Shown piece after piece: positions 15,201 to 64,000 of a stretch of 64,000 nt of DNA (the first letter of the stretch is position 1; every line of letters begins with the position of its first letter). The translations under genes were made by a program, and so were the position numbers. Source of the DNA: Eunapius fragilis (taxonomy: Eukaryota; Porifera; Demospongiae; Spongillida; Spongillidae); assembly GCA_963681505.1 (NCBI GenBank), contig OY811973.1, positions 10,475,975 to 10,539,974 of the forward strand. Reading direction: 5' to 3'. The notes beneath the pieces are model-generated. The model worked only from the letters and a program-made list of their open reading frames with translations. It did not search any database and was not told where the DNA came from.

Positions 15201-23835
<8,635 letters not shown>

Positions 23836-23905: not shown

Positions 23906-25755
23906 ATCTAAATAATGACCGCCATTGGTAATAAGGCCAGCAAGTATTAATAAACTGATATTTTACATAAAAGGGGAGGGGTCTGGGGTAGCCGCTTAAT
24001 ACTGTTATCCAGGGGCGGATACAGAATTTTATGGAACGCCGTATGTTGCAAAACTTTTCACCAGTGAGCGGGCCATGCAGTCAGCTATGAATTATGTTTC
24101 AGCGCCCCCTAATGTGCACGTTATGCGCCCCAAAAAGAAACTCAACCGTGGACCCTACCTGGGCAGCATTAATTCTCAATAATAATGTCTAACAATTATT
24201 CAGATGTTCTGCTCCATATTGTGATAACTTGGCTCTAAGATATATGAAATCGTATACAGTATACAATCAAAGGTACAAATACCTAGTTATACATTGATAA
24301 AGGGGCGGCTCGGAACAGTGGACTTTCACACCTCGGAACAGTGGACTTTTGACATCATTTAGGAATTGCAAACGTAAACGGCGTTGCGGGGTGGGAAAGG
24401 ATTATACGATAACGTCTGCATTGCGTAACAATGTGCCAATTTGTCATACTAGAGGGATTTTTCATGGGAGTATATCACCATTACTAATCTATTACAATGA
24501 CATTTTGGTTTACATGTACATAGTTGTAATAATACTTGAATGTGCGCAACGTGCAGAGAGAAAAATGTGTGGACTTGAAAAAAGTAAGCCGGTCATTGTT
24601 TGCGCATCGTAGAAAAAAAAAATCGAAGTTCGAAAGAGCCCACTTTTTTTTCTTCTCAAAAACGGCCTAGGCAGACGCTCAAGAAACAAACACCGATGGA
24701 TAGACAGACTATCCGTGCATTTATAATTAGGTGCTGGGATGTGATTTTGACTCATTTCTTTACACACGCAGGCCAATAATTCAATAAAAATTCAATGTTA
24801 GATATTCTTTGTGTTGTATAGCAACGTAACTACGTCTTCAAGTAGCTTAGCAGCGTGCCAAGGTGGTTCCAAATACTGTACTAATTTGTATAACTCAGTA
24901 CGAAGACGGATCCGGCTCGTGGTTTGGGTGATATTAGAATATTATGATTAGTGTACAATCGTTCCGATGACCGCGTGAGATCGGCTCGATAGGCGCGATC
25001 GTTGCGAGCAATGATTATGTAATTTTATCCAATTTGGCGTTCCATACACGACAGCCTGTTAGCGGCGTCGAACTTATCTTGGAGTGACTTGACTTGTGTT
25101 GTAAAAGGTAGCGTGACCCGAGCGTTTTCCTAACTATTATGAATTTCCTTTATAAAATCTGTTTGGGCCATACATACAAACAGAGATAATATATATATAT
25201 TATCTCTGATACAAATCCTTTACAACGTTGTATGTAGAGCGATTAGGCTACTACATCAGCTAACTAATCACGTGATTTAGGTTAAAGTCCCTTTGCCCTC
25301 GGCAGCTCGTGATAACGCATCGATTCTACGCTCATTGCGCGGCATTTACAAAGCAACTCCATCTTTAAATACCACACGGTTGAATTTACGCTACAAGTTC
25401 TTAGTAAATACACAGCGGGAGTAAATACATGTTTGTAGCTTAGATGTAACAGTAGATATGGTACAATATTCAAGTCATTGATGGGTGTGGTTAATACATT
25501 TGTAATCGGATAGCATAATGATTTTAGGGGTGCGGTCAGGAAAATGGGCATGCTCGTAGGCGGAGGGGAGGGGGGGCCTGTTCCTGAAATTTGTAGGATG
25601 TGTGTCAAGAACTTTTACTTTTTGCCCCCCCCCCCCCCCCCCCCCCTTTCATCGCGCAAAACAACTTTAAAAAAAAAAAGACTAGTCCAATTCAAACTAT
25701 AGTCACTACATAGCTACAAGCAGTTACAGCAAGACCATTGCATCCAAAGGGTTCT
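23906..25755. other. intergenic
   Basis: No gene supported. A G-rich element end (ccaggggcggatacagaattt) is at 24,010. A short direct repeat cggaacagtggactttt occurs at 24,310-24,350. A perfect 28-bp palindrome cagagataatatat... spans about 25,181-25,208. A poly-C run is at 25,626-25,646. The segment 25,358-25,460 is a copy of the promoter region of the micro-exon gene. Confidence 0.5.
25358..25460 (-). promoter_or_regulatory. second copy of the micro-exon gene promoter
   Basis: Homologous, same strand, to 28,515-28,600: both contain (plus strand) aaatacc-cacggt, gaatttacgctay and cgggagtaaatacatgtttg. On the minus strand the TATTTAAA box is retained and is followed by a short ATG frame (MELLCKCRAMSVE...) with no recognised family. 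It may mark a lost or truncated paralogue. Confidence 0.45.
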
Positions 25756-28456
25756 TTATAGATTTCTGAACTTGTTTGCAGGAGCCCTGTTAGAAGGGAG
25801 TCATACACTCATATTTAACCATGCAGACTGCAACACAATCTGATTATCAAATTAACACAATCGTTCAGTCTAACTTACGGTGTCGGCTTTTGTAGCTATA
25901 TGGTGGAGTGAAAATAAAACATTTGAAGTGTGCCATAATGAAAAATGGCAGCATGCCAAAACAATAACAGTAAAAGAATTTGCAACAAACAGCAAATTGC
26001 AATCATTGATACTTACACACTGCATTATAGAATCCATGGTGACAATGAAAAAGCAGGTATGTTACAGCACACAGTTGCATATTCAACATCATTATTGATA
26101 CTTACACACTGCATTACGCATATTTTAATCCATGGTGACATAAGTAGGTGCGTTAATATCCAATGGGGAAATGCAACATTATCGACTTACACACTGCATT
26201 GTCCATAAAGTGTGCACAGTGATAAACATATGAAGGAGCAAGGTAATGAAAGCATTGATACTTACAGACTGCATTGATAGTATCCATGGCAACAAGGAAT
26301 AGGTAAAGGTGAAATGGGAAGCACAGCACAATTGATAACTTACACCCTGTATTGTTCATACGGCAACAAGGAATATTTATAGGCATGGTAAATGTTGAAC
26401 TGGAAAATCAACATTGCTGATACTTACAGTCTGCATTATTCATAATAGTAAAATGGTAACAAGGGAAAAAATAGGCATGGTAAGGTGCAATGGGAAATGC
26501 AGCATCATTGATACTTACAGTCTGCATTGTTTATAATAGTATCAACGGCAACATGGAATAAGTAAGCATGGTAGTAAAGGTGGAATTGGAAATCCAGCAT
26601 CACGGATACTTACTGGCTGCATTGTTCATTAAAATTACCATGGCAACTAATTATAAGAGGAGCAATGGGAAATGTAACACTTACATACTGCAGTGACAAT
26701 AGTAACCATGGCAACATGGAGTAAGTAAGCATGGTAAATTATGTATGGGAAATCCAGCACCATTAATACTTACAAACTGCATCATTGTTCACAATAGTAA
26801 CCATGACAATGAGGAATATTAGTGCCATGGGGAATTCCAACATCATTGATACACTTACTATCTGGATTGTTAATGTATGTAGCAGTATCCGTGGTGACAA
26901 AAACAGATGTGTTAAAGGAACCGGGAAAGTCAATGTAACGTCAATACACCAATACTTACACACTTGATCGTAAATAGTATCATGATCAGACCAGAATAAT
27001 TAGACATGATAAAGTGCAATAAGAAATGTAACAGCATTGATACTTACACCCTGCATTGTTCATAATGGTGTCCATGGTGAAGGTGCATGTTAAGGTGCAG
27101 TGGAAAATTGCAGCATCATTGAACTTACAGGCTGCATTGTTCATTATGGTAACCATGGTGACAAAAAAATAAGGGTAGTAGGCGTGTTAATGTTGATTTT
27201 GGAAGTGCTACATCATTAATACTTACAAGCTGCATTGTTCATAGTAGTATCCATGGTGAATGAGACATGTTAAGGAGCAGTGAAAAATTTAGCCCCATTA
27301 TGTTGAACTTACCTTCTGCATGTTCATTATGGTATTCATGGTGACAAGGAATAAGTAGGCATATTAAAATATGCAATGGAAACGCCACAGTATTGATACG
27401 TACAGGCTGCATTGTCCCAGGATAACAAGGAATAAGCAGTATGTTATAACGTGCATGAAAAATGCCGCGCATCATTGATACTTACACACTTCATTGTTGA
27501 TAATAGTATCCATTGCAATGAGATAGTTATTTTTGAATAGAAAATGTAACATCATTGATGCTTACGGCCTGCCATGTTTATGATATATAGTGTCCGTGTC
27601 AACAAGGAATAAGTAGGCATGGTAGAAAATACACGATCATTGATACTTACAAGCTGCATTATTAATCATAGTATCCATGGCAACAATTGGCATGGTAAAG
27701 CGGTAACTAATACAACATCCATGCTACTTACAGCCTACAGTTGTATTGATCAAATGGCAGCAGTTTTTAATACAGAGCATGGTAAAAGAGCAATGGGAAG
27801 TGCAACACCATTGATATGTATACCTTCTGCATTGTTCACAGTAGTATCCGTGGCAACAATGAGTAAAGTAAAGATGGAAAATGCCACATCCGTGATACTT
27901 ACCGTCTGCATGTATATATAGTTCATAGTATCCATACAAATAGGAATAAATAAGTAGGCTTGTAAGGGTATAATGGGAAGTGCGGCATCACGGATATTGA
28001 CTTACGCATTTCTTTTAAAAAATAATAATATCCATCGTAACAAGGAATAAGAAGTTTTGTTAAGGTGCATGCATGCAATGAGATTTGCAATAACTTACAA
28101 AACGTTGCTGCGTAGTTCATCCATGATGAAGAGTATCCAAGGTGACGAGAAAATGTTGGTACATAAGATAATTCGTTCATATACTATGCCACACCGTTGA
28201 TACGTTCTGACCTGGATTTTTACATCCTTTGAATCAACTTCTATAATTATAATACAGTTGCATGTAAATCAATGCCCGGCTGCAAACCGGCAACGCGACA
28301 CTCTTACCCTCGTCCTCTTCGTTGTCAGGCTGCATGAAATGTATATATATCGTACATATATCTATAGGACGCCTATATACAATCGCAAACCTGTTGGGGG
28401 CGGGCGTCAGCGAATAGCGTCAGTAGGGTCGCAAGAAGAACTAGTTCCTTCAGCAT
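25756..28456 (-). CDS. micro-exon gene: secreted six-Cys peptide built from single-codon exons
   Basis: Inferred exons, 5' to 3': 28391-28456 (signal peptide, MLKELVLLATLLTLF), 28308-28329 and 28212-28240 (acidic linker), 28099-28107 (9 nt), 28006-28011 (6 nt), then 23 exons of exactly 3 nt starting at 27903, 27824, 27732, 27651, 27566, 27486, 27404, 27313, 27227, 27129, 27048, 26960, 26859, 26774, 26685, 26614, 26519, 26428, 26344, 26266, 26191, 26106, 26017, then 25879-25886 and 25756-25786 with stop. Every one is bounded by AG and GT (mostly GTAAGT). Phases close and the total is 240 nt. The product would be 79 aa, with Cys at about 44, 50, 56, 65, 66 and 67 (spacing C5C5C8CCC), so presumably secreted and disulfide-linked. 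I recognise no family; the C-terminal half faintly resembles a VWC module. The last two exons are least certain (25879-25895 is an alternative in the same phase). Confidence 0.7.
25887..28211 (-). repeat. array of near-identical short introns flanking the micro-exons
   Basis: About 26 tandem units of 68-104 nt. On the minus strand each runs GTAAGTATCAATGATG ... CCCATTGCACC ... TTCCTTGTTGCCATGG ... TACTATTATGAACAATGCAG, with indels. The ends GT and AG and a TACTAT-like branch-point candidate about 15-20 nt before the AG are kept, while the 3 nt between consecutive units differ: TGT, TCT, GGT, ACT, CCA, TAT, TTT, ATA, AAG, GCC and others. Confidence 0.9.
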
Positions 28457-28600
28457 TCTCTGTTGCAGCCTGCAGGGGTGTGATATGTGACTAGAGCGAT
28501 TTGCTAGCTTAAATACCGCACGGTCTGAATTTACGCTATACGTTCTCGGCATACACAACGGGAGTAAATACATGTTTGTAAAGATGTAAGTGGTGGAATA
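28457..28600 (-). promoter_or_regulatory. promoter and 5' leader of the micro-exon gene
   Basis: On the minus strand GGTATTTAAGC (TATA-like) lies about 70 nt upstream of the ATG at 28,456. The block 28,515-28,600 is duplicated at 25,358-25,460, which argues that it is a functional or formerly functional unit. Confidence 0.45.
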
Positions 28601-28911
28601 CTTACAACCTCTAGCAAACCTCACAATTAACATTGTTTCAACAACATCCGGAAAATTTACGAGTCCGGATTATGAAAATTTTAGTAGTACGCCGAACATG
28701 ACGAGTGTTTAGGTCCTAAACAATAAGCTTTAGTCCTAAACCAAGCTATGTCCATATACGAGCGAGTTCACATGTTGATAAACATGACATGACATATGTT
28801 TCATTGTACGGAAACCCTTAGCGATTTATGTCCCATCTCTCGGCTCAAGGCCCTTAATACGAGTATTTGCGGCCGCGGGCCTAGACAGGAGAGGGTACTG
28901 GCAGAGGAGGA

Positions 28912-29154
28912 TCCAGGAATTTAGGAAGGGGGGGAGGCAACAATAATGAAAAGTTATAATTAAGTGAGAAATGGGTGTGGTTCACCGAAAGGAGGTGGGT
29001 GCGGGAGGGGGTAAGCTTTTGGTAGCTATACGTTCAAAATGCAATTAAAAACGCTATATTGCGCGACTATGAATATTTAATTAGACGAACGAAAGGCAGG
29101 GGGGGGGGGGGGGGGGGGGGGGGCATAGCCCCCTCTCCCCTGGATCCGCCTCTG
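28912..29154. mobile_element. G-rich MITE-like element
   Basis: Ends cagaggaggatccaggaat and ggatccgcctctg are inverted. The interior (gcaattaaaaacgctatatt, gcgcgactatgaatattt) matches the element at 45,176-45,454. It includes a long poly-G run at 29,100-29,123. Confidence 0.75.
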
Positions 29155-29237
29155 GATCGGCTAGTAATTGAAGCTATTAATGTTATCGTATTTCTACAAC
29201 AAAGGCAGAGAGACAATATTTATTATCTCTGAATCTA

Positions 29238-32919: not shown

Positions 32920-35900
32920 CTAAAATATAACAATGCAATGGTTAGACCCATCTGAGATCAGTACCTCGCCTTTACTGTTCACACAGATTCCGTAGGAGGA
33001 CTGCAAACATCTCAGCACCTCGCCCCCCTTGACCCCCAGGTAGCGTATCAGCTCCCCACGGGGGGTGAGCACGGACACGACCGCCTGCATGTGGCTAATC
33101 AGTATGAAGCTGTCCGGGTCGCACGCTATCCTGCAAGGCGGGAGCTCCAACTGGATGACGTTATCCCTGAACCCCGGCTGCGGAAACACCGCCCCCTCCA
33201 GGGTGAACGCCTGAATACGTCTATTCCCCAATTCAGCCACCAACAGCCTGTTCAGCGGGAGGTCTATGGCGACATCCCGCGGGGCGTTCATCTCTCCCGA
33301 CTTTGTCCCGAGCTTTCCAAACACATGCACGAGCTTGTTGTTGTTCTGGCGGAACACCTGTATGCGATGGTTGCCACGGTCAGCCACGTACACCTTATCG
33401 TTGCTCAGAACGGCTATCCCCTCGGGGTTGTTGAACTGGCCCGGCTGAGACCCCAGCTCCCCGAACGTGCTCTGGAAGACCCCCGCGAGGGAGACCTTTT
33501 GGACGCGATGGTTGCTGCTGTCCGATATGTACATGAAGGGAGGTTTGCCCTTCGTCACGGCAACCGCGAGGGGCAAGTTGAGCTGGCAGCGGGCGTTGCC
33601 GTAGCCACCGTAGGTGCACTGAAGCGAGTTGTTCTCGCCAAGGACCCTCACGCAGAAGGCGTCGGTGAACACAATGTGATCGTTCAGCGTCACCGACAGG
33701 CCGCGCACGTTGGCCACCTCAGGACTAAGCTTAGACTTCGGGATGATATTGCTCGGCTTGTCCATGGAGTGGTAGTCCCTGCTCTTGAAGACAACCAGCT
33801 TGAACACGGCAGGAGTGATGGGAATGCCGTTTACGGTGATCACCACCGTATGCAGGCCGACGCTGTGCGGCACAAAGCCGACCGTGTACTGACCGATCGG
33901 CACCGCGTCGTCGCCGCTGTCGTCGGTTACGGTGGCGGCTATGGGCCCCTCCGGCCCGTCGATCGCCACCTTCAGGCTCGTCCCCTTCACGTAGCTGCGC
34001 TGGCCGAATCGGTCGTACGCCCTGACGGTGAAGCGCGCCTCCCTGCCCACGAAGCCCTTCGTGAGGGACTCCCCCTGGGCCGTGAACCTGGACGGGACGG
34101 GCTTGCAGTAGACTCCGCCCACCTCCTGCGCCATCCCCTCGAGGGTCCCGGGGATGTAGCAGTGGGGGCCCTCGTCGACGCTCTCGCACGGCTTTCGGGG
34201 CCTCTCCTGAGCCTTCAGCATGGCGTTGGTCACGTTGTCCACGACCCCTTGCTTCTGCCCGAGAAACAGGACGGCCTGGGGAGGAGTCACGGCGGCCTTG
34301 AGGTTGTCCACGTGGAGCGAGAGCTCCCTCTTGGCCTGCTGCAGGGACTCGTGCTGGTCCCGGAGGTTCCTGATCTTCTCCGACACGGCAACCTCCGTCA
34401 GGTCGACCAGCTGCTGCTCCCTAGCGCGGAAGGCGTCCACGATCTGCTGGAACGTCTTGTGCACCTGCTCGGCAATCTCGTTCTTCCTCGAGCCCATGAC
34501 CTCGATCATCCTCTCCACCTCCAAGATACCCACGTTCACGCTGTGGAGGACGACCTCGGCCTTGTCCAGGACGTTCTCGCGGAGGGAGGCCATACCCTCG
34601 TTCACGGCGTCCTCCAGCTTGCACACGTCGTGCCTCTGGTGGCTGCGGACGTGGCAGTCCCCGCATATGGGGAGGCTGCACCCCGGGAGCCGGCAGTAGT
34701 ACTCGAGCGGTTTGCGGTGTGTGTCGCATACGGGAGCTGTGAGGATTTGGAAGGGGGCAGTGAAAGGAAAGATGAGAGGAGGAATTTGACAGTGAGAGGA
34801 GAAGTGGCAGGGAGTAATGGATAGATGTGTATTGATATCATCCTACCTCTTACCGTTTATCACAGCATCCCTCTCCATCCCCCATTTGCTAGCCCCCTTA
34901 CATCACCCCAACGTCCACCCTATCTCACCACCCTATCATTTCTCCTTCCCACACTGCCTCCACCAACCCTCCTCCTCTCACCATTACCACCATCCCTCCT
35001 CCCTCACCACCTCTCCTCCCCTCACCATCCCTCCTCCCCTCACCATCCCTCCTCCCCTCACCATCCCTCCTCCCCTCACCATCCTCCTCCCTCACCATCC
35101 CTCCTCCCCTTACCACCCTCACCATCCCTCCTCCCCTCACCATCCCTCCTCCCCTCACCATCCCTCCTCCCCTCACCATCCCTCCTCCCCTCACCATCCC
35201 TCCTCCCTCACCATCCCTTTTCCCCTCACCATCCCTCACCATAAATACCTCTCAGCTTACATTGCTTACCCAGGTCATGCCCACCAGGGATATTTGGAGT
35301 GGCTACCAATATTGGCTTCAGAACTTCAACTGCATAGCCGAGATCAACGTTGCGAGGCAGTCCAGCCACGCCCCTGTCGCCCAGGGAAATAACCCTGCGA
35401 CACCGAGGGCAAATAATCTCATCTCCACCTGAACAACCAATCAAATGAACACAACTTTCAACCAGACAATATTTATAAGGCAAGGCCACACCCTCAATGG
35501 CAAGGCCACACCCTCAACGGCAAGACTACACCCTCAAATGCAAGGCTACACCCTCGAAGGCAAAACCATACCCTCAAGGCAAGGTCACACCCTCAACGGC
35601 AAGGCCACATCCTCAAATGCAAGGCTACACCCTCGAAGGCAAGGCCATAACCTCAAAGGCAACAAAGGCAAGGCCACACCCTCAAATGATGTATAGAGAC
35701 AAAACTGCATAATAGTAACATTCAACCCCACACCCTTGTGTATAACAGTTATGTAGTACGACCCCTTGTGACCCCACCCTTCCCCAGGGGTTATTTAGTA
35801 CGGCCCCTTGTGACCCCACCCCTCCCCCAGGGGTTATTTAGTACGGCCCCTTGTGACCCCACCCCTCCCCCAGAGGTTCTTTACAATGGCCCCTTGTGAC

Positions 35901-39507: not shown

Positions 39508-39906
39508 TGACTCTTAGTTCCCCCTCATGTGCAGTGGAATTCCCAACGTCCTCTACTATAATTGTTATTGAAAAGCTGTACATATGTGTATGCTTTTACG
39601 TCCTTACCTATTTTCTGATCCTTGTGATCGACTGTATAGGCCTAATTCTGAGTTAGTTCATGATCCCCATATATGCATCAAATTATACTGTATTCCCCCC
39701 TCCGCCCGATGCATTTATAACCACAGTTTATCTGTCCAAAGCCTAAGCCTAAGCCACGAACGCAATGCTCGTTGGCTATTGTTCATCAGACTCGCCACCG
39801 CACTGACCGCAGGTTTCGACAATGGGGCGCTTTAATTGGAATTTAATTCCGTAGCTACAACGGTCACACCCAATTCTGTGTTTATAGAAAACCTATCACT
39901 AAAAAA

Positions 39907-41007
39907 ATGCGCCGAAGACAGACGCTTCAGAAAGTAGTAAAAGAATTCGATGCATTTCCAAAGGTACCCGAAGATTACCAGAAGCCGACGGTTCGAGGAG
40001 GGACGCTTTCGTTGCTCTCCCTATCCATCATACTACTACTCGTCATATCCGAATTCTTCTACTACAGGAGTACAGAAACGACCTACCGCTATTCCGTAGA
40101 CACAGCAATGGAGAGCGAATTGAGGTTAAGTATCGACATGACCGTGGCAACGCCCTGCCGGTTCCTGGGGGCAGACTTGATCGACCTCTCGGGTGACAGC
40201 ATAGCGTCCGTGTCGGACATGAAGCAGGAAGACGCCGTGTTCGAACTCACCCCCGCGCAGAAGAGGTGGCTCGACCGAAAGAGGGCAGCCCACGAGTCCG
40301 TCTCGGAGCTTCGCTCCTTAGGAGAGCTGACGTTCCTGACGTCCCTCGTCGGTAGCGCCATGCCCGCCGCGGACAGAGACGAGCGGCCGAAGGACGCCTG
40401 CCGCGTCCACGGCTCCCTGTCCGTCAGGAAGGTGGCGGGAAACTTCCACGTCACGACGGGGCGCTCGATCCCGCACCCCCAGGGCCACGCCCACCTCAAC
40501 GTGTTCGTCCCGCAAAACGAGCTGAACTTCTCGCACCGCATCGACTCCCTGTCCTTCGGTCCCGTCGTACCAGGAGCGGTTAACCCCTTGGACGCCACGC
40601 TCCAGATCACCGCAAACAGGCATCACATATTCCAGTACTATCTCCAAGTAGTGCCCACCAAGCTGAGGACCGTGGACCAGAGGTTAGACACGTGCCAGTA
40701 CTCTGTGACCGAACGGAGCAGGCCAGTGGAACACCAACTGGGTAACCACGGCGTCCCAGGCATATTTGTCAAGTACGAAATGTCACCCATGATGGTGGAG
40801 ATTATAGAGAAGAGGAAACCACTCCTCCAGTTCCTTATAAGGCTAATTGGTATCGTCGGAGGCATATTCGCCACGTCCGGCTGGCTGCACATCATGATTG
40901 GAATCGTGAGTGAGTTCTTATCACCCAGGAGCAATAAGTTGCCCGAGCCGTTGTCTGCGGCAACGCCCAGTGTGGGCATTGCCACTCCCTCTGGTGTGAA
41001 CACGTAG
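39907..41007 (+). CDS. ERGIC2: ER-Golgi intermediate compartment protein 2
   Basis: An intronless frame of 366 aa, close to human ERGIC2 (377 aa). ERGIC2 is a two-pass membrane protein that cycles between ER and Golgi and forms a complex with ERGIC3 in early secretory transport. Diagnostic segments: the N-terminal VKEFDAFPKVPEDY before the first membrane span (about residues 32-52, LSLLSLSIILLLVISEFF), the lumenal DACRVHGSLSVRKVAGNFHV and IPHPQGHAHLN, FSHRIDSLSFG, the QYYLQVVPTKL and YSVTER segments, GIFVKYEMSPMMV, and a second span RLIGIVGGIFATSGWLH. The start is the first ATG, preceded by AAAAAA. Codons are GC-richer in the middle of the gene than in the flanks. The lack of introns may reflect retroposition or ancestral intron loss. 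Confidence 0.93.
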   Translation: MRRRQTLQKVVKEFDAFPKVPEDYQKPTVRGGTLSLLSLSIILLLVISEFFYYRSTETTYRYSVDTAMESELRLSIDMTVATPCRFLGADLIDLSGDSIASVSDMKQEDAVFELTPAQKRWLDRKRAAHESVSELRSLGELTFLTSLVGSAMPAADRDERPKDACRVHGSLSVRKVAGNFHVTTGRSIPHPQGHAHLNVFVPQNELNFSHRIDSLSFGPVVPGAVNPLDATLQITANRHHIFQYYLQVVPTKLRTVDQRLDTCQYSVTERSRPVEHQLGNHGVPGIFVKYEMSPMMVEIIEKRKPLLQFLIRLIGIVGGIFATSGWLHIMIGIVSEFLSPRSNKLPEPLSAATPSVGIATPSGVNT

Positions 41008-56702: not shown

Positions 56703-59700
56703 TTAGTATCTATCCGGTGGCTTGGAAATTCTTCCACTTCTTGTAGTTGTCCACCTTGGTGCAACCAAATCCTCATGTTCTGCAATGTCGTTCTGTTGGG
56801 GTGTATTGCTGACCTCATCATTTCTTTCTCCTGTATCATTTTCTACTGTCTCCTGTTCCTCCTGCGGCATCATTATCTTCTGGGCATCATCATTTTGGTG
56901 CATAGTATTTTCATCTCTTTCGGACCTTCCACTCTCCTCGTTTTGTATTCCCAACCTCTCTTGAATGTCTTGATCATCAAGCTCACTCTCAGGTGTTTCA
57001 CTGTTCCTGCTTTCAGCTATTTCATCCCTCCCAGGTGCTTCCTCTTCATCCTCTGCTTCAGTAACTGGATTTTCCACTCTCAAAGGCTCAGGCTCTTGCT
57101 GTACCACTGTACCCCAAAGTTCACTTTCTTCACTAATATTCAGTGATTGAGAAGAATAAGTCCTGTCTTTAGTCTGCCTTTTCAGCAACGTCAAAAAGCG
57201 TCGATTCCTGCGGTATTCCCCAATGGTAGTGTTGATGATGTATGATCTGGGAGCTACTCTTTTGACAACGTTTCCCTCTATCTTACGATCAGTTATCCAC
57301 ACTTTGTCACCTGGGTTTAACTCTGGTAACTCCACTGCTCTGTGACGGTGATCAAAATTGATTTTCTGTAACCCCTTTACCTGAGATTCCATTTCTTTGA
57401 CAACAGCTTGTTCTGGAACTTTAGGAACGCGTTCCTGCTCAATGATTGGCACCGTGGTTCGCAACTTTCTACTCATTAGCAATTCTGCTGGGCTGTATCC
57501 ATTTTGCAAAGGTGTGGCTCTGTACGATAGCAATGCTAAACATGGATCAGATGTTTTCTTCCACATTGTCTTGATCGTTTTTACAGCTCGCTCCGCTGCT
57601 CCATTGCTTTGGGGAAATAACGGACTACTCGTTATATGGTCAAATCCATATTCCTGACTGAATTTCAGGAATGAGTGAGATGAAAACTGTGGTCCATTGT
57701 CTGAAATGAGTTCTTCAGGAATACCATGTCTTGCAAATATTGACTTTGTTCGGCTTATCACTTCCTCTGCTGTCATATGATCCAAATGTGCAATCTCAAT
57801 AAACCTGGAATAATAATCGACAATAAGCAAGTAGTTGTCCCCTTTCCAGTGGAAAATGTCTGCAGCAACTCTCTGCCATGGTAAAGAAGGTAACTGTGTT
57901 GGTATTAACGGTTCCACCTGTTGTGGTTGATGTTTAATGCACTGTGGACAATTCTTCACCAATTTCTCCAAATCTTTTGAGATGTTAGGCCACCATACAC
58001 TCTGTCGAGCTCGCTCTCTACATTTAGTTATCCCTTGATGTGCACCATGGATTTTATTTAAAATTTCTGTTCGGAGTGACTCTGGAACAACAATCCTACT
58101 TCCTCTCAACAGTAGCCCTTTTTCAATGCTCAACTCTCCAGCAACTGAAAAATATGGTTTAACTGCTTCAGGTACATCTTTCTTTTCTGGCCACCCTCTG
58201 TAGCTGTACGCAGCTATCTGCCTACATACACTGTCAGTTTTCTGACATTGACGTATCTGGTTAAGTTTCTTGTCAGTAGCTGGGATACCCTGGATAATCC
58301 AATGAACGAATGCCTCTATGTCATTGTGTTGAGCTTTTTCCTCATCCGAAGGTTGAGTTACTGGAGCTCTTGATAGCGCATCAGCAATAGTGAGGTTTTT
58401 GCCAGGTACATGTGATATTGAAAACTTGAAGCGCATTAGTCTCAAGCGAAAACGTTGTACCCTGATGGGAAGCTCCTCCAGGTTCTTCGTACTCAACAAG
58501 GGAACCAATGGCTTGTGATCTGTTTCCAAATGGAATTTTAATCCCAGCAAATAGTCTGAGAAACGTTCACAAGCCCAGGTTAGCGCTAACGCCTCCTTTT
58601 CAATTTGTGCATATCGCTGCTCTGTTGGAGTCATAGCTCGTGAGATGTAACAGACTGGAAGTATTTTACTATCTCTCTGTTTCTGTAAGAGGACACCACC
58701 CAACCCAAATGAGGATGCATCTGCTGAAACCACTGTAGGGAGATTAGGATCATATAAAGCCAATAGTGGTGAACTACTAAGTAGCTTTTTAATTTTCTGG
58801 AAAGCTCTTTGCTGATCCGTTCCCCATACCCACGAATTTTTTTACTAAGCAAATCTCGAAGAGGCTTTGTTTCATGGGCGATATGAGGTGAGAATTTGCT
58901 CAACTGGTTGATTATCCCAAGAAACCTTCTAATATCACCAACATCCTTCGGTTCCGGAAACAGAGTGATGGCCTTCATCTTTTCCGGGTCTGGACTGATC
59001 CCCTGATTACTCACAACATGACCCAGGAATCGTATCTCTGTCTTCGAAAATTCACACTTACCTGCATTCAGTGTAAGTCCAGCTGAAAGTAGACGTTTGA
59101 GAACTTGATCCAATCTTCTGTCATGTTCCACCCGTGTTGTTCCAAAAACCAGAATGTCATCAATCAAACATACTACTCCGTCCATACCCCCAAGAATCGA
59201 AGACATTCTCTTCTGAAACAATTCAGGGGCTGATGTGATTCCAAATGGCAAGCGCTTAAAACAGAAGCGCCCAAACGGAGTTATAAAAGTTGTCAACAAG
59301 GCTGATTCACGAGCCAATGGGATCTGCCAAAATCCTGAATTGGCATCCAATTTAGAGAACAATTGTGCCCCAGTGAGTTGTGTTAAGATTTGATCAACAA
59401 CTGGCAAAGGATGATTCTCTCTACAAACATTCGCATTTAGCTTTGTAAGGTCAACGCAAATTCTGATATCCCCATTTGCTTTTGGTACTACCACCATCCC
59501 TGCACACCAATTGGTTGGTTCTTCTACGCTTGATATCACACCAAGTTCTTCCATCCGCTTCAACTCTGCTTTGACTTTAGGCAATAAAGGTGTGGCAACC
59601 CTTCGTGGAGTTGTGATAGCGAATGGTGTGGCTCCCTCTTTCATCCGTATCTTGTATTCTGGTCCCATTATTCCTAATCCTTCAAACAACTTAGGATATT

Positions 59701-60874
59701 TCTGTTGCACTGCTGTCACTCCCACAAAATCCACTCGTTGCAAGAGGCTTAAAGATTCAATAGCAGGTCTTCCAAGTAGTGGTACTTGCAGTTCAGGAAG
59801 GACATATATATCCTGCTTTACTTCTTTTCTCCCAAGTCTTAGGGTTCCTAAGAAACAACCCCTCACCAACAGTTTTTGATTTCCTGGACCATACAGGATC
59901 TTTTCTGGATAGCGAAGTGTCGTATTTTTCAACTGCTTGTACACACTTAGGGGAATTACTGTCACGTCTGCGCCAGTGTCAAGCTTGAAATGTATCTGAT
60001 GTCCATTCAAACTAAGACTCTGTTTCCATGGAGATTTGTCTAAGTTGGTATCTCCAAGTGTATCGATAAACACAGCCTGGACTGAACTTGCAGTCTTTGT
60101 GCGACACATTTCTTTCCAATGGCCACGCCTCTTACACTTGTGACATATCGACTCCCTTGCTGGACAGTGTTCATAGCTGTGTCCTGGGGTCCTTCCACAA
60201 TAGGAGCATTTACCTCTGTATTCTGATCCTCCCCCTGCGCCAGGTGTGTACCCTTGTGCTTTCCTTGGTCGCACCTCTCTATCCTCAGGTTTAGCTTTAA
60301 AATGCACTCGATCTATTCGCTCTTCCGTTTCCACTTCCCTTCTCAGTAGAACTTGCTGCTTCTTCACCATTTCTGATTGACGAACCATTGTCACTGTTTT
60401 TTCTAACGTTAGATCTGGGTCCAATTGTAGCTTCTCTGAAAGAGACACGTCTCTCAGCCCTACAACAATTCTGTCTCTAATCAGTTCGTCACGCAGACCA
60501 GCAAAGCCACAATGTTCTGCAAGAGCATGCACACTGGTAACAAAATCATCGACAGATTCACCCTCCTCTTGCTTTCTCCGATTGAATTTCGCCCGCTCAA
60601 AAATCACGTTCCTCTTCTTCCCAAAATAGGAGTCAAATTTCTGTTTAACCACCTCGTATTTCTTCTTGTCCGTCTCGCTCAAGTTAAACATGTGTAGGAT
60701 ATCCTCTGCTAAATCTCCCATCGTATACAGAAGCATATTTACCTGTTTCTCTTCACCCTTTGAGTCCAATTCAGTCGCGAGTCGAAACCGCTCAAACCGT
60801 CTGACCCATTTCGGCCACTCTTCCGGTTGGTTGAACGTGAAACCCTCTGGAGGTGTTACTTGGCTAGTTGCCAT
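56703..60874 (-). CDS. gag-pol polyprotein, one frameshift
   Basis: The first frame (58,631-60,874) carries Gag with two zinc knuckles (CSYCGRTPGHSYEHC, CHKCKRRGHWKEMC, about residues 220-260), an aspartic protease LDTGADVTVIP (about 305) and reverse transcriptase with LIDDILVFG (about 600). Near 58,838-58,844 a run of seven A (minus strand) puts the remainder in the -1 frame. That second frame supplies the end of RT (NSWVWGTDQQRAF), RNase H (SADASSFGLGG, EKEALALTWACERF, ETDHKPL), the integrase zinc finger (HGAHQGITKC...NCPQC), the core with DIFHW, SDNGPQFSSH and NGAAERAVK, and a C-terminal RSGRISKPPDRY. Gag and pol are one continuous frame otherwise. The shift lies inside the RT-RNase H connection, not at gag-pol, so it is probably an inactivating indel or a homopolymer read error and not programmed. 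Confidence 0.92.
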
Positions 60875-60893
60875 GGCTTAAAACTAGATTAGA

Positions 60894-60984: not shown

Positions 60985-64000
<3,016 letters not shown>

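Follow-up and report, generated by a model that had tools for sequence, protein, structure and literature searches.

A Sponge Gene Family Predicted to Encode the Mature Parts of Secreted Peptides in Arrays of One-Codon Exons

A 64,000-nt stretch of the genome of the demosponge Eunapius fragilis (GenBank assembly GCA_963681505.1, contig OY811973.1, positions 10,475,975 to 10,539,974 of the forward strand; below, the window) carries a minus-strand gene composed largely of 3-nt AG-[exon]-GT units. We consider it very probable that this gene belongs to a family of secreted peptides with a conserved prepro region, in which the mature part is encoded by 3-nt phase-0 exons that would be spliced stepwise from 5′ splice sites defined by intron bases alone. 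A preliminary description of the window had treated the gene as a single one; its architecture was borne out, while the gene itself turned out to be one member of a family.

Structure of the window gene and its family

Thirty minus-strand exons between positions 28,456 and 25,756 were rebuilt by exact string search, and the layout drawn up in the preliminary description proved correct to the base. The phase sum closes as claimed (66 + 22 + 29 + 9 + 6 + 23 × 3 + 8 + 31 = 240 nt, or 79 codons plus a stop). The array comprises 25 AG-[exon]-GT units with exon sizes of 9, 6, and 23 × 3 nt, every acceptor being AG and every donor GT; none of the single codons is a stop, and there is no frame break over the 25 units. 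When joined, the exons encode MLKELVLLATLLTLFADARPQQPDNEEDEEVDSKDVKIQQRFKCTKALACPKLPGCIFYPTTGSCCCPTPAPANKFRNL, followed by the stop, and the six cysteines of this product have the C5C5C8CCC spacing described earlier. Exon 1, judging from its sequence, encodes a signal peptide on an exon of its own. Most of the mature region lies in symmetrical micro-exons; exons 1–3 and the last two exons are not 3-nt units. The array spans ~2.4 kb, with introns of 68–104 nt. The 8-nt exon that follows it lacks a stop, and the frame continues for 12 residues. As a chance control, the pattern [CAG/AAG/TAG]-NNN-GT[AG][AC]G was counted in the window, yielding 28 sites on the minus strand, 22 of which fall in the 1-kb bins at 26 kb and 27 kb, versus 7 on the plus strand. 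No Rfam family matched window positions 25000–29200.

In the searched genome (219 Mb, 24 contigs), the gene region used as a query returned at least 151 matching pieces. The signal exon returned at least 40 places (a figure that counts the query and the window gene) on twelve contigs (C1, C3, C6, C7, C11, C12, C13, C18, C19, C20, C21, and C22). The first exon of the family reads MLKELALLVTLLALFADARPQ with few changes, and 16 places among the matches listed were 74–89% identical. Conservation shows that exons 1–3 encode the predicted signal peptide and acidic propeptide of the family. Precursors were assembled for ten loci, eight of which entered an alignment (L001 without its 9- and 6-nt exons). 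Clear counterparts of exons 2 and 3 (...MSDEVEENSDSLTNRDDILE and EMITSYLRAKSAGSL) were present in eight of the ten, L001 and L014 being without them; automatic choice of these exons gave none for L018, and its top choices were implausible in several loci. The longest array, in L012, has 52 three-nt exons in a row; exon 3 of this locus was looked for and not identified. Paralogues L020, L023, L025, and L028 have a 6-nt first array exon, TCGTGC or TCATGC (SC).

Stretches L002–L008 are parts of larger ones and were excluded from locus counts; L015 (an inverted copy of L014), L029, and L030 (atypical, with longer exons mixed in) were excluded from the stop, third-base, pair, and block counts given below. 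L014 (C12:3138192, plus strand) and L015 (C12:3126334, minus strand) lie ~10 kb apart in opposite orientation, and their array codons are identical throughout. L029 (C18) and L030 (C11) are relatives that seemingly mix 3-nt exons with ordinary longer ones and may be intermediate forms. Open reading frames (ORFs) P0011, P0019, P0026, and P0041 from ENA contigs match stretches of L020, L045, L024, and L018, respectively, from end to end without a difference; a second assembly of the same or a very close species therefore exists.

A search with the precursor alignment returned 42 proteins, 16 of them named Ephydatia muelleri (two annotation sets together) and 26 unnamed. The homologous signal and propeptide were found in E. 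muelleri with E-values down to 2.1e-26. In seven of the 16 proteins (P0001–P0005, P0007, and P0008), exons 1, 2, and 3 are joined as predicted, with a long exon 3, and six (P0005, P0007, P0008, P0017, P0023, and P0033) run on into an array intron, e.g., ...VKPQ-I-VSIHDV and ...LTFQ-H-VSINDIAFPMA. In this run-on, a GTAAGTATCAATGAT-like intron start behind exon 3 is read through as a VSIND-like sequence. The published E. muelleri gene models were produced by AUGUSTUS trained on RNA-seq data (PMC7385117), and the Em-numbered protein set is taken to be these models. We read them as showing the array in a second species, not as transcript proof of one-codon exons. Pfam gave no match better than E 0.18, and PDB gave no meaningful match (best E 0.057).

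Exon length and coding constraint

Exon length was assessed by a scan in which only the flanks were scored and exon lengths of 0–39 nt were equally allowed. In 21 loci, 438 of 456 matches had a length of 3 nt. The remaining lengths were 6 nt (3 matches), 7 nt (6), 9 nt (4), 11 nt (4), and 13 nt (1); the 7-, 11-, and 13-nt matches and one 9-nt match correspond to the terminal exon AAATGAG/AAATAAG, i.e., Lys-stop. Three matches were found on the opposite strand. The same scan of two held-out sets gave 3 nt in 70/76 and 49/51 matches and none on the opposite strand. Genome-wide, the pattern ATGCAG-N{0-12}-GTAAGTATC matched 486 times, versus four times for a reversed control pattern; the lengths were 3 nt in 473 cases, 6 nt in five, and 9 nt in three, with at most five others. 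A codon-blind chain, which replaced earlier position weight matrix chains that had missed weak units, found 534 exons of 3 nt across 23 loci (L015 repeating L014), but it penalizes lengths other than 3, and the claims on length rest on the flank scans and the genome-wide pattern. Outside L047 and L049, and terminal stop exons aside, the chain exons not divisible by three were the first pieces of L013 and L018 (23 nt each, taken as exon 3) and of L043 (16 nt), the last pieces of L045 (17 and 19 nt) and L030 (8 nt), and the 4-nt candidates of L029 described below.

The preliminary description had suggested that triplets varying among relatives with no coding constraint would speak against exons. 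In the paralogues, the triplets varied strongly, yet none of 488 (20 loci) was a stop, versus 11.7 expected by within-column shuffling (of 5000 trials, none gave fewer than two). After reduction to a single entry for each triplet and locus, stops numbered 0/218 versus 6.4 expected (P 0.0006); the held-out sets, weak on their own, gave 0/99 and 0/56 versus 2.8 and 1.6 expected. A single stop was present among the 473 genome-wide triplets, a TGA at C1:24190380, ~2.7 kb downstream of the L018 array; TGG occurred four times. A broader scan that included stray sites outside arrays and counted both L014 and L015 gave 3/654 stops, versus 62/177 on the opposite strand. Triplet positions 1 and 2 carried 0.03 and 0.05 bits of information versus 0.89–1.97 bits in the ten columns on each side, the AG and GT columns of this profile being partly fixed by the search. 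When the AG and GT columns were left unscored, both dinucleotides were present in 376 strong units and one was absent in three. From this selection we infer that the array triplets are exons, and the earlier one-codon-exon interpretation thus gains support from the stop and length tests on paralogues.

Decay among paralogues, also named earlier as a sign against coding, was seen in two stretches. L047 has lost donors and contains candidate 4- and 5-nt exons, and L049 has one 2-nt exon; neither stretch contains a recognized signal exon, and none lies near them among the matches listed.

The third base of the triplets is T in 75% of cases in arrays versus 11% in two ordinary window ORFs. Since this base always precedes the G of GT, the excess of T is likely caused by CpG loss through C-to-T change. 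Glutamine codons in the arrays were CAA in seven cases and CAG in none, whereas the two ordinary ORFs had eight CAA and 39 CAG; a CAG placed right after the CAG of the acceptor would offer a second, tandem acceptor and delete the codon.

Several points weigh against the one-codon-exon interpretation. The exons are predicted from genome sequence, the 42 protein matches include none from the lgn-tagged source in the same database, and no assembled spliced transcript was found there. Skipping the entire array would also keep the frame, and annotated relatives do not carry the array as codons. Since 3-nt units served to derive both the flank model and the genome-wide pattern, decayed units of other length may go unnoticed. 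A 4-nt candidate exon lies in each of the three copies of a triplicated block in L029. The units share descent, and the counts are not independent. With all codon boxes included, the third-base box test did not reach significance (P 0.42); without stop-bearing boxes it gave P 0.0001 (0.012 after de-duplication), a split that was chosen after the first result. Finally, among the 14 loci examined in the Cys-rich group, the 8-nt exon behind the array was without a stop or not found in six; it was not found in L027, is stopless in L024, and the ends of these two loci were not placed.

Two of these points, frame-keeping upon skipping and the lack of array codons in the relative's annotated models, would also be expected if the arrays were minisatellites, tandem repeats within one intron of small secreted-peptide genes, with AG-NNN-GT being part of the repeat and the array skipped. 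The units are, moreover, tandem copies of ~91 nt, and a repeat finder reported 2.3 copies of 95 nt. However, the triplet is the most variable spot of the unit and yet avoids stops, has a constant length, and keeps its AG and GT, none of which a silent repeat should do, and the two arrays lacking a recognized signal exon do lose lengths. We regard a minisatellite as very improbable.

Predicted splicing, products, and evolution of the arrays

The 5′ site was a perfect GTAAGTAT in 382 of 488 units and began with GTAAGT in 439. G, the exon base with which U1 usually pairs, stood last in only 35 of the 488 exons. Family introns were most often 88 or 78 nt long (60–115 nt being kept), and a TACTAT motif located 15–20 nt upstream of the exon is likely the branch site. 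We propose that each intron would be recognized by intron definition. The first eight intron bases, GTAAGTAT, could pair with the 5′ end of U1 without help from the exon, making the three exonic bases dispensable and so free to be any sense codon. Because a 3-nt exon is too small for two spliceosomes, introns would be removed one after another, each step adding one codon to the growing exon and re-forming a 5′ splice site in a manner resembling recursive splicing. Intron definition combined with recursive splicing has been proposed for a 1-nt exon (PMC4674806).

Stepwise removal would be required equally if the units were non-coding ratchet points of recursive splicing or a regulatory splice array, and the closely spaced AG and GT of strong consensus would fit that explanation too. 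A ~2.4-kb span needs no ratchet, however, and sense codons, a constant 3-nt length, and an in-phase terminal stop would all be superfluous; we attach next to no probability to it.

The terminal stop was found in phase in the terminal micro-exon of 12/12 placed loci outside the group with an 8-nt exon. The terminal exon was Lys-stop (AAATGAG or AAATAAG) in L009, L010, L011, L012, L016, L017, L022, L026, and L050, Asn-stop (AATTAAG) in L051, and AAG followed by TGA in L014 and L021. Gly precedes Lys-stop in 8/12 (L009, L011, L014, L016, L021, L022, L026, and L050). In L022, the terminal exon lies 2.5 kb from the last unit; no end was placed for L029, L030, or L045. Of the 14 loci examined in the Cys-rich group, eight have an in-phase stop in the 8-nt exon (L013, L018, L019, L020, L023, L025, L028, and L048). 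This exon has none in L001, L043, L044, and L046, where the frame runs to a stop in the next exon after 7–12 residues; the tails of L043, L044, and L046 are apparently 10, 9, and 7 residues long, with acceptors picked by a simple motif.

Within a functional family, the window gene might be an ageing member in which some units would be inefficiently spliced. Three of its donors are irregular (u4, u7, and u9; Table 1), and its propeptide is shorter than the seven others aligned. Against this, there is no stop and no frame break, the six-cysteine framework is intact over 25 units, and the run-on tail is apparently shared with L043, L044, and L046. Ageing of the window copy thus appears unlikely.

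The predicted products fall into two kinds, those rich in Cys, many of them with a CCC run close to the C-terminus, and those that for the most part terminate in Gly-Lys-stop. Cysteines number six in the window gene, five as counted in L019, L020, L023, L025, and L028, and seven in L027; other members are Gly- and Arg-rich or Pro-rich cationic peptides. The Gly-Lys-stop peptides are probably C-terminally amidated. For an amidating enzyme, there were 12 exon-level PF03712 matches (best E 1.6e-5), in which PAM and dopamine-hydroxylase-like proteins were not separated. As their role we favour host defence or deterrence, at about even odds, with signalling as the main alternative.

The prepro DNA of L009, L011, and L016 is 95.6–98% identical; despite this, their arrays read GKGGKRGGPRGGGPRGPKIGGGGK, LRRRPRPRPDPLRRLLPPLLPPIRGK, and CDPGCPGCICSWRGK, respectively. 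According to our proposal, arrays would lengthen and shorten through duplication and loss of whole units, at one residue per unit, so that peptides of different length would arise, and codon identity would diversify faster than the surrounding introns. In nearest pairs, triplet positions differed by 45, 44, and 30% versus ~3% of the flank, although pairs were chosen on both flanks, which biases the flank rate down. Pairs selected on a single flank showed 48–54% divergence at triplet positions 1 and 2, compared with 16 or 23% in the flank not used for selection. Among 23 collinear runs of at least three near-identical introns, interior codons were all kept in nine and not in 14, the latter being overlapping and all involving L009. 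In a non-overlapping set of blocks, introns differed at 40/3362 bases and interior triplets at 10/84, and 23/28 codons were unchanged.

L009 contains two blocks (chain introns 3–6 and 16–19) in which four consecutive introns are identical and three of the five codons beside or between them differ. Targeted hypermutation was considered as the main explanation for the codon differences and dropped; selection and unit exchange were kept as the default.

Near-identical introns occur next to different codons and on different chromosomes, as might be expected if introner-like mobile introns had invaded a contiguous coding sequence between codons. Insertion of this kind should produce introns in every phase and exons of many sizes, but 481/486 genome-wide matches are 3, 6, or 9 nt, and most interior codons (23/28) are unchanged in the non-overlapping collinear pairs; we therefore give this scenario hardly any weight. 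If the arrays are indeed one-codon exons, any subset of these phase-0 exons would be skippable in frame, and each gene could provide a combinatorial library of peptides with single-residue differences. As the codons change next to almost constant introns, a codon-diversifying process (selection with short-tract exchange between units, or even targeted mutation) may feed this library. This extension is tentative, and we find it rather doubtful.

Other features, known systems, and significance

The positions of the window-gene features are given in Table 1.

Table 1. Predicted exons of the window gene, in transcript order, with positions in the window
Feature	Position	Strand	Remark
Exon 1, predicted signal peptide MLKELVLLATLLTLFADARPQQ	28391..28456	-	66 nt, ends phase 0
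Exon 2, acidic propeptide PDNEEDE	28308..28329	-	22 nt, ends phase 1
Exon 3	28212..28240	-	29 nt, back to phase 0
Micro-exon u1, CAACGTTTT (QRF)	28099..28107	-	9 nt
Micro-exon u2, AAATGC (KC)	28006..28011	-	6 nt
u3, ACG (T)	27903..27905	-	
u4, AAG (K)	27824..27826	-	weak donor GTATAC; missed by 3-nt-favouring chain
u5, GCT (A)	27732..27734	-	
u6, CTT (L)	27651..27653	-	
u7, GCC (A)	27566..27568	-	donor GTAAGC
u8, TGT (C)	27486..27488	-	
u9, CCT (P)	27404..27406	-	donor GTACGT
u10, AAG (K)	27313..27315	-	
u11, CTT (L)	27227..27229	-	
u12, CCT (P)	27129..27131	-	
u13, GGT (G)	27048..27050	-	
u14, TGT (C)	26960..26962	-	
u15, ATA (I)	26859..26861	-	
u16, TTT (F)	26774..26776	-	
u17, TAT (Y)	26685..26687	-	
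u18, CCA (P)	26614..26616	-	
u19, ACT (T)	26519..26521	-	
u20, ACT (T)	26428..26430	-	
u21, GGT (G)	26344..26346	-	
u22, TCT (S)	26266..26268	-	
u23, TGT (C)	26191..26193	-	
u24, TGT (C)	26106..26108	-	
u25, TGT (C)	26017..26019	-	
8-nt exon, CCGACACC	25879..25886	-	no stop here
Last coding exon, stop TAA	25756..25786	-	31 nt; would be 3′ untranslated region in loci with a stop in the 8-nt exon
Whole array, 25 AG-[exon]-GT units	26017..28107	-	introns 68–104 nt

Elsewhere in the window, a 31-bp minisatellite of 8.4 copies occupies positions 23217–23477, and a TRIM-like frame with a B-box, a filamin repeat, and NHL repeats lies on the minus strand at 32920–34839. On the plus strand at 39847–41004, ERGIC_N and COPII-coated ERV domains are encoded by a single 386-codon open frame that apparently has no introns. 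Two overlapping minus-strand frames at 56706–60877 are retroelement ORFs; their domains are those of an aspartic protease, a reverse transcriptase, an RNase H, and an integrase. At 60986–64000, a GAT/ATG trinucleotide repeat is uninterrupted from 60,986 to 62,500, and base composition suggests that it continues to the window end. On contig C24, the mitochondrial cox1 gene contains nine TGA codons in frame, which translation table 4 reads as Trp. It is surrounded on one strand by trnR, trnS, trnD, and trnC and by two open frames which we take, by eye, to be nad3 and nad4L, a demosponge-like order. The top-scoring match of this cox1 was a UniRef cluster named Demospongiae (94% identity), with unnamed entries reaching 95%. 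At C9:9625139-9675257, incomplete cox1 copies containing TAG and TAA stops are likely nuclear copies of mitochondrial DNA.

The micro-exon genes (MEGs) of schistosomes, which have a signal-peptide exon and symmetrical exons, are the nearest known design, sharing secreted products and runs of tiny exons with the sponge family. Their exons measure 3–81 bp (PMC10526429). Unlike those of the flukes, the array exons of this demosponge are nearly all 3 nt, with up to 52 in a row, and their codons are hypervariable; MEG introns reach 5 kbp, versus 68–104 nt within the array of the window gene. As to sequence homology with platyhelminth MEG proteins, the matches in the protein search consisted of 16 named E. 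muelleri proteins and 26 unnamed ones. Other very short exons described in the accessible literature (3-nt exons in Ncam and troponin T, 1-nt exons in plant APC11 and VPS55, and adjacent 5- and 12-nt exons in rice) are single or paired, whereas in the sponge family nearly the whole mature coding region would be made of them. Recursive-splicing ratchet points share the stepwise removal with re-formed 5′ splice sites that is the likely order in the sponge arrays, but they are non-coding, typically a zero-length exon in a long intron, and add no codons, while each step in the sponge would add one sense codon.

Conotoxin-like and host-defence families have a conserved signal and propeptide, a hypervariable mature region, Cys-rich forms, and Gly-Lys ends, and the sponge family shares that layout; we know of no counterpart of the one-codon exon architecture in them. 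PRDM9 zinc-finger arrays likewise consist of homogenized units that differ mainly at hypervariable codons. The homogenized hypervariable pattern is alike, but PRDM9 units are coding and the sponge units are introns with one codon each. A literature search, with subscription papers and preprints mostly outside it, revealed neither one-codon exon arrays nor a sponge micro-exon family in the accessible text.

If confirmed, the family would bring the exon to its logical minimum of one codon, over nearly the whole mature peptide and across many related loci. It would provide a natural test of the spliceosome on exons too short for exon definition and would suggest that intron bases are enough for a 5′ splice site to be recognized. 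The peptides would evolve, and perhaps be spliced, residue by residue. Since the E. muelleri models lack the array codons, standard annotation by implication misses such products, and sponges may hold a hidden repertoire of peptides.

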